The notes under the pieces were generated by a model. It was not told the origin of the DNA, searched no databases, and saw nothing but the letters and a program-made list of their open reading frames with translations. This document shows, piece after piece, positions 25,704 to 27,636 of a stretch of DNA of 48,207 nucleotides (positions within the stretch are counted from its first letter, which is position 1; each line of letters starts with the position of its first letter). This DNA is from Candidatus Pacearchaeota archaeon (GTDB lineage Archaea; Nanobdellota; Nanobdellia; Pacearchaeales; GW2011-AR1), in the NCBI GenBank assembly GCA_016186425.1, contig JACPLR010000023.1, forward strand, positions 1 to 48,207. The letters are read 5' to 3'. Both the position numbers and the translations under genes were made by a program.

Positions 25704-25919
25704 TTGATTATGGAAATAGTTTTTACAGAACATTCAAAAGAGAGGATGCAGATAAGAAAAATAACAGAAGAAGAAATTAATGAAGCTATAAAATATCCAG
25801 AAGAAGTAAGAAAAAAAGAAGGAAAATATTATGCAAGAAAGAATATTGGAAGAGCCAATATAGAAGTTGTTTACGAAAAAGAAAAATATATAAAGATCAT
25901 AACTATATATTACTTATAG
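25704..25919 (+). CDS. DUF4258-like protein (putative RelE-type toxin)
   Basis: IVFTEHSKERMQIRKITEEEINEAIKYPEEVRKKEGKYYARKNIGRANIEVVYEKEKYIKIITIYYL. Confidence 0.75.
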   Translation: MIMEIVFTEHSKERMQIRKITEEEINEAIKYPEEVRKKEGKYYARKNIGRANIEVVYEKEKYIKIITIYYL

Positions 25920-25941
25920 ATTACAAAGGTAAAAATAAAAA

Positions 25942-26151
25942 ATGAAAATAACATTTGACAAGGAAGCAGATGCAATGTATATAGAAGTAAGCGAGGGAGC
26001 TTTTGCTAAAAATAGAAAGATTGATGATGAAACTATTATAGATTTAGATAAAAATGGGAAGATTATAGGAATAGAATTATTGAATGTAAGCAAAAGAATG
26101 TCAAGTGATTTTCTTTCAGATATAAGGGTTCAAAACTTGGTTTCTTCTTGA
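25942..26151 (+). CDS. DUF2283 family protein (putative antitoxin partner)
   Basis: MKITFDKEADAMYIEVSEGAFAKNRKIDDETIIDLDKNGKIIGIELLNVSKRM. Confidence 0.8.
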   Translation: MKITFDKEADAMYIEVSEGAFAKNRKIDDETIIDLDKNGKIIGIELLNVSKRMSSDFLSDIRVQNLVSS

Positions 26152-26445: not shown

Positions 26446-27105
26446 CTATGAATTCCCGCTTAAAAAACTAGCAGCAGAATTTCCATGCAAAACTTGCCCG
26501 TCAAAATTATTCCAAAGAGCTTCAGCTATTTTAAATGATTCTGAATCTGCTTTTGCAAGAATTTTTCTTATATTTTTTAACATTTGTTTCTTTGCATTCT
26601 CGTTTGCATAAGATGCTGAATTTCCTTTTATTAATGATATTGGAACAAGATTAGAAGGCTCTAAAAATAACCTTGCTGTATTGTCTTTTAAGGGATTGCC
26701 TATCCATTGTGTATCTACATAGAATTGAAATGGCCTGTCATAACCAATAAAACATCCATCTTTGGAATTTTTTGTGCAGGCAACACCGAGAACTGCGGCA
26801 GCATGGCAAGATCTCGCATAAACTATTCTATCTTTGATTAGAAAATCATTAACTCCAGCTTCTACTAAAATTTCTTTATTTCCGCTTATAGCTTTATCTG
26901 ATCCATGGCCATTAAAAATAACCATTTTATAATCTTGCTTCTTGATTATTTTTTCAAATATATCTTTAACTGCATCTTTATCTTTAAGAGGCTTAATTTC
27001 TATATTTGCCTTATTGGCTGCATCTTCAATTTGCTGTGAAAATTGGGATAAATATTCAGTTACATCATCATGTCTTGGCATGGTTATCAGAATTCCTTTT
27101 TTCAT
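26446..27105 (-). CDS. Caspase/CHAT-like cysteine peptidase (clan CD fold), start at MKKGILITMPRHDD
   Basis: Putative dyad: His in YKMVIFNGHGSDKAISG and Cys in DRIVYARSCHAAAVLGVAC. ATG at 27105 lies 1 nt after the stop of the upstream gene. Confidence 0.65.
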   Translation of the reverse strand: MKKGILITMPRHDDVTEYLSQFSQQIEDAANKANIEIKPLKDKDAVKDIFEKIIKKQDYKMVIFNGHGSDKAISGNKEILVEAGVNDFLIKDRIVYARSCHAAAVLGVACTKNSKDGCFIGYDRPFQFYVDTQWIGNPLKDNTARLFLEPSNLVPISLIKGNSASYANENAKKQMLKNIRKILAKADSESFKIAEALWNNFDGQVLHGNSAASFLSGNS

Positions 27106-27106
27106 T

Positions 27107-27343
27107 TTATATAGTTGTAATAGCCCTTGTAAAGTCTCCCCTCGCAACAGCTTTCATAAAAGAAATATGCGAATTAATTATTTGTCTGCCTATAGAATCC
27201 CCATCTTTAACATGCCTTATCATCTCTTCTTTTGTTAAAGCTTTATCGCTGCCTATGGCTAGTTTAAGATTGGAAGGAATCGTTTCTATTCGCATTATAA
27301 CAACTTCTTTCAATTCCTCTTTAATTTCTTTTTCTTCACTCAT
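27107..27343 (-). CDS. Small protein of unknown function, second gene of caspase-like operon (78 aa)
   Basis: MSEEKEIKEELKEVVIMRIETIPSNLKLAIGSDKALTKEEMIRHVKDGDSIGRQIINSHISFMKAVARGDFTRAITTI; ATGA overlap with the upstream ORF. Confidence 0.75.
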   Translation of the reverse strand: MSEEKEIKEELKEVVIMRIETIPSNLKLAIGSDKALTKEEMIRHVKDGDSIGRQIINSHISFMKAVARGDFTRAITTI

Positions 27344-27534
27344 ATTATTTTAATATCCTCCAATACTTTCAAAATTTTCTTTCCTAAAGCAGTATTTTCC
27401 TCTATCTCTATAAATGCAGTATTCCAAGTGTATGGCTTTTTTTCAATAACTACTATTATATCTTTCCTTAACCCATCAGGAATATCTGCGTAAATCTTAA
27501 GAAATTTAGCCCTTTTATCTTCTTGCTTTGCCAT
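27340..27534 (-). CDS. Small protein of unknown function, first gene of caspase-like operon (64 aa)
   Basis: MAKQEDKRAKFLKIYADIPDGLRKDIIVVIEKKPYTWNTAFIEIEENTALGKKILKVLEDIKII; TATA-like TTAAATATATA just upstream. Confidence 0.75.
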   Translation of the reverse strand: MAKQEDKRAKFLKIYADIPDGLRKDIIVVIEKKPYTWNTAFIEIEENTALGKKILKVLEDIKII

Positions 27535-27636
27535 AAATAGTTAATGTTAAGTATATATTTAAGTTTAACGCTCTTGGTTTTTGCAATATTTTGCCTACTA
27601 TTATAACTTATTCCAATATACAAACCTCTCTGTTTT

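Follow-up and report, generated by a model that had tools for sequence, protein, structure and literature searches.

Caspase-like peptidases are recurrent effectors in prokaryotic conflict systems (PMC7159879, PMC8195603), and in the EAD/caspase systems such an effector is accompanied by small non-enzymatic partner modules in loci that are patchy and mobile, with the adaptor domains fused to sensors or NTPases (Kaur et al., 2020, 2021; PMC7159879, PMC8195603). Caspase-type conflict systems have been tied to multicellular prokaryotes, the CPR having been excluded from the lifestyle statistics because too little was known of them (PMC7159879, PMC8195603), and an older statement holds that the Archaea are without caspase gene homologues (PMC3615174). 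A caspase-type catalytic core is also found in the SAVED-CHAT protease of type III CRISPR systems (8tl0), in gingipain R (peptidase C25, 1cvr) and in the caspases proper (C14). Recognised defence systems are few in the DPANN archaea and in their counterparts among the bacteria. According to a survey of 7747 archaeal genomes from 2026, RM and CRISPR-Cas are underrepresented in DPANN, whose systems tend to be compact, as those of Patescibacteria do (PMC12988326).

The three-gene cassette considered here, A-B-C, lies within a window of 48,207 nucleotides (the whole stretch of DNA that was analysed) from a DPANN, Pacearchaeota-like genome assembly of 868,632 bases in 29 contigs. Its features are as follows:

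27340..27534, minus strand: gene A, 64 aa, open reading frame without known family
27107..27343, minus strand: gene B, 78 aa, open reading frame without known family
26446..27105, minus strand: gene C, 219 aa, clan CD / CHAT-like cysteine peptidase fold
27340..27343, minus strand: ATGA shared by the stop of A and the start of B, translational coupling
26905..26907, minus strand: codon for the predicted catalytic His67 (NGHG) of C
26806..26808, minus strand: codon for the predicted catalytic Cys100 (YARSC) of C
27550..27562, minus strand: TATA-box-like TTAAATATATACT, ~16-28 nt upstream of the ATG of A, picked out by eye

All three genes are open on the minus strand at the positions given by the first-pass annotation of this DNA, and both signs of tight packing that it had listed, the overlap of A with B and the single base (27106) between the stop of B and the ATG of C, are present in the window sequence. 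Judged by its sequence, the TATA-box-like element is likely to be a putative archaeal promoter of the cassette. An Rfam search of the window gave no match.

The same annotation had proposed a caspase-like fold for C from its NGHGS (H67) and YARSCHAA (C100) motifs, and structure prediction bears this out. The AlphaFold2 model (pLDDT 96.1, pTM 0.92, with 42 homologs in the alignment) has a caspase-like alpha/beta core in which H67 follows the third strand (E61-65) and C100 the next core strand (E94-98), so that His and then Cys stand at adjacent strand ends, as in clan CD. In a Foldseek search of the PDB the best solved match was the SAVED-CHAT protease 8tl0 (E 1.4e-6, TM 0.58-0.60, ~16% identity), below which came gingipain R (TM 0.61), caspase-4 and caspase-1 (TM 0.43-0.54) and separase. 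Across 75 distinct complete cassettes the catalytic cysteine is present in all 75 and the histidine in 74; N65, G68 and D141 are, like C100, invariant. The one departure occurs in a Patescibacterium (locus L101 of genome G518, C gene 1501-2136), in which the catalytic histidine is replaced by tyrosine (NGYG) in an otherwise complete cassette; from its sequence this C is a possible pseudo-protease.

At the sequence level C stands apart from the families that it resembles in shape. Neither Pfam, NCBIfam nor PADLOC gave an acceptable match, and the CHAT profile (Pfam PF12770) matched neither the window protein nor, among the matches listed, any of its 42 homologs, so the relation of C to CHAT is one of structure only. 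The caspase family (Pfam C14) was likewise absent from the matches listed for C and these homologs, one of the 42 weakly matched Pfam C25 (E 0.0023), and a search of the PDB by sequence found no credible match for the cassette proteins. The model suggests that C, by sequence a family of its own, is built to act like a clan CD peptidase, and it is predicted to have cysteine-peptidase activity. It shares the CHAT fold and the His/Cys dyad with SAVED-CHAT, but is a bare peptidase domain of 215-220 aa with no SAVED domain and no cOA sensor; SAVED-CHAT has no counterpart of A and B, and the cassette is not found in type III loci, Cas genes lying near few cassettes only. With gingipain R and the caspases it shares the clan CD core, but C belongs to another family, is intracellular-looking and has no prodomain. 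The sequences of the cassette proteins show no evident hydrophobic segment or signal, so that the A-B-C module is most likely cytosolic.

The two small proteins, which the first reading of the DNA could place in no family, found no acceptable match in Pfam, NCBIfam or PADLOC, and none of the three cassette proteins matched a PADLOC 2.0.0 defence model. They constitute two new protein families without known relatives. The consensus of A is ..FLK.YANLP..LR.dII.ViD..P.TWN.Ay.EI.n.T.lG.kILk.L..l.II, with P19 and W37 invariant in 41 sequences, and that of B is ..LVIARLE..P...K.SIGS.G.F.K.ELIEHV.K.D.IG.KIIEIEL.FLRALK.G, with G31 and G52 invariant in 42. The AlphaFold model of B (pLDDT 88.7) comprises a long helix, a short beta hairpin and then three helices, for which the PDB holds no relative (best E 0.36), and no DNA-binding domain is convincingly recognisable in either protein. 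The local motif that had been said to be similar in A and B is faintly reflected in a profile-profile comparison (probability 15%, E = 0.0017 over 23 columns), and one A protein found the B profile with E = 2.6e-5 within a set of 73 sequences. Together with the similar layout of the two sequences this is suggestive of a common descent, which is possible rather than established. Unlike the adaptor domains of the EAD/caspase systems, A and B are separate tiny proteins with no NTPase; neither has an acceptable Pfam match, and no NTPase is conserved next to the cassette.

The cassette behaves as a unit. We fetched 83 distinct cassettes, and in the 75 complete ones A, B and C are adjacent, in the same order and on the same strand, with the exact 4-nt overlap of A and B kept in 46 of the 75. 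When the B and C profiles were searched separately against 380 Nanoarchaeota genomes, an even sample of the window's phylum, B was found directly upstream of 47/47 full-length C genes and C directly downstream of 50/52 strong B genes, which is the co-occurrence that the first-pass annotation had called for. No intact C without B was found among the full-length C genes of these genomes, and the two exceptions for B are a frame-broken C remnant (locus L046 of G400) and a partial B (G267). At the former (G400:C11, 1498-2100 of L046), B and the broken C directly adjoin a cas1 gene, and A was not found. In a set of 95 genomes, C homologs occurred in nine, the window genome counted, and A and B lay directly upstream of every full-length C, down to 27% identity. 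Purifying selection on the three genes is strong: median dN/dS between close pairs is 0.08 for A, 0.07 for B and 0.10 for C, hence all three are coding and constrained. Their pairwise distance matrices correlate (Mantel r 0.61-0.69, no permutation above 0.18), which reflects shared descent in part. Neither a conserved fourth gene nor a conserved sensor gene was found beside the cassette.

Decay of the cassette appears to begin with the peptidase. In five cassettes (L025, L089, L096, L103 and L138) a stop, a frameshift or a truncation disrupts C whilst A and B are open, and the reverse, an intact C with broken partners, was not seen. This is the pattern to be expected if the effector is costly and its partners are harmless; it should be considered with caution, as C makes up 60% of the length, five breaks out of five in C have a chance of ~0.08, and errors in MAG assembly are possible.

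Two short peptide patterns, which rarer or more distant relatives could escape elsewhere, were scanned against 85,462 species genomes and gave 43 loci, all of them in DPANN archaea, Patescibacteria or Omnitrophota. The DPANN carriers comprise Woese-, Pace-, Aenigmat-, Micr-, Nanohal- and Iain-archaeota together with archaeal MAGs without a finer name, and A-B-C was intact wherever the contig extended far enough and C was unbroken. By profile search, the cassette is present in 45/380 genomes of Nanoarchaeota (12%), 11/337 of Patescibacteria (3%) and 5/191 of Omnitrophota (3%), and two genomes (G155 and G389) hold three copies each, which have diverged. The carrier genomes examined are small (0.7-1.8 Mb), and the Omnitrophota, too, are reported to be mostly ultra-small (PMC10066038). 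Even close relatives of the window genome differ: six congeners gave no C match, an absence that ordinary gene loss and incomplete MAGs would also produce, and in an empty-site comparison the genes flanking the window cassette were not conserved in them.

In one bacterial genome (G543) the cassette shares a contig of 1,089,434 bases with a bacterial 16S gene (1380 bits for the bacterial against 919 for the archaeal model), so that its occurrence in bacteria is not merely a binning artefact and mis-binning is rejected at least for this genome; in G161 and G432 the cassette and an archaeal 16S gene are on the same contig. The nearest named relatives of the window C in the C tree are two Pacearchaeota loci (L092 and L091). 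Since the tree calls for two domain changes, transfer between Archaea and Bacteria is likely from the sequences; a tree that unites the bacterial members in one clade is not rejected either (p-AU 0.279), so that the data are compatible with more than one number and direction of transfers. A phage-borne origin is not supported, as tblastn of C against phages and plasmids and four scans of viral contigs found no relative.

The neighbourhood differs at nearly every locus. Among the matches listed for the 142 nearest neighbour proteins of ~50 cassettes are five MNT/Pol-beta nucleotidyltransferases, two proteins each of the BRO-N, ResIII and NYN families, HEPN, Cas1, Cas3, Cas4, YhcG, a TOTE primase and a Schlafen-type helicase. 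A control of 142 proteins at least 15 kb away on cassette-bearing contigs was richer in housekeeping genes and also included PADLOC matches, the comparison being a qualitative one from the top families listed. Cassette neighbourhoods lean towards defence islands, which is a tendency and not proof. Pairs resembling HEPN/MNT nucleotidyltransferases recur beside the cassette (L012, L014, L052 and L078, in clusters of four loci each). A BRO-N family protein (PADLOC PDC-S13) is encoded next to the cassette at L011:6202-7065, and a relative 57% identical to it lies beside the cassette of a different archaeon.

Taken together, the earlier interpretation of this locus largely holds up, and the cassette is a stronger candidate than first proposed. 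We favour the reading, with a probability of roughly 0.55, that A-B-C is a self-contained, horizontally mobile system in which a CHAT/caspase-like peptidase and two dedicated small partners form a regulated effector, most likely one acting in conflict or dormancy. Coupled translation would ensure that A and B are present whenever C is made, and the small proteins (probably B directly) would hold C under control, or assemble it in a controlled form, as inhibitor or adaptors. An intracellular trigger, such as infection, stress or the loss of labile small partners, may then release or oligomerise C, which through its His67/Cys100 dyad would cleave one or a few host proteins and so bring about growth stop or cell death. 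The patchy presence, the up to three diverged copies, the lack of a fixed fourth gene and the defence-type flanks give the cassette a conflict-like ecology. It is a tentative further step, at somewhat less than even odds, to see in it an undescribed immune or programmed-cell-death system that joins a minimal protease effector to two new partner families, is specialised to host-dependent prokaryotes of ultra-small size (DPANN, Patescibacteria and Omnitrophota) and has been shared between domains by transfer.

Much of this evidence would also be expected of a toxin-antitoxin or addiction module in which C is the toxin and A and/or B the antitoxin, the cassette persisting by addiction and not by defending the cell. 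The compact, coupled operon with its small genes ahead of a larger putative toxin recalls type II-like systems, an intact C is never without B, C is the first gene to decay, and the distribution is patchy and multi-copy. However, there are two conserved small partners here in place of one, neither of a known antitoxin family or with a convincing DNA-binding domain, the effector has a protease fold, and the strong purifying selection that C has long been under in both domains suggests that it brings some benefit besides addiction; we regard this explanation as unlikely. Regulated housekeeping proteolysis is a distinctly doubtful alternative, in which C would mature or remove a specific cellular protein, for instance during surface biogenesis, and A and B would serve as chaperones or specificity factors. 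The conserved active site and low dN/dS would suit such a role, as would the glycosyltransferase-like genes that surround the window copy, but a cassette found in only ~3-12% of the genomes of the sampled phyla, at times in three copies, with different surroundings at nearly every locus and no conserved neighbour or substrate gene, speaks against it. The tyrosine at position 67 in L101 could be taken to mean that C has the clan CD fold without being a peptidase in vivo, and is for example a binding or signalling pseudo-enzyme; with the dyad kept in nearly all cassettes of both Archaea and Bacteria and placed at the expected strand ends, this is very improbable.

The A-B-C cassette is undescribed in the family, defence and structure libraries and the literature searched, and it bears on the claim that archaeal caspase homologues do not exist. 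Occurring in about one in eight of the sampled Nanoarchaeota genomes, this 1.1 kb caspase-like module is a candidate for the infection response or death control of such cells. The carriers, ultra-small DPANN, CPR and Omnitrophota, are unlike the multicellular prokaryotes that EAD/caspase systems favour; if the reading is true, it would amount to protease-effector immunity in ultra-small prokaryotes, in contrast to the caspase-type systems reported mainly from multicellular ones. With three small genes only, the cassette is directly testable by expression.

Lone C-terminal tail fragments of C lie near complete cassettes at L004:3404-3502 and G360:C2:16544-16723, and may be remnants of duplicated or displaced cassettes. 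The DUF4258 and DUF2283 genes that had been reported beside the window cassette are true Pfam matches, forming an adjoining pair at 25704-26151 of the window on the plus strand, and a DUF2283-like gene, accompanied by a small partner, also lies upstream of another cassette (L045:2301-2815).
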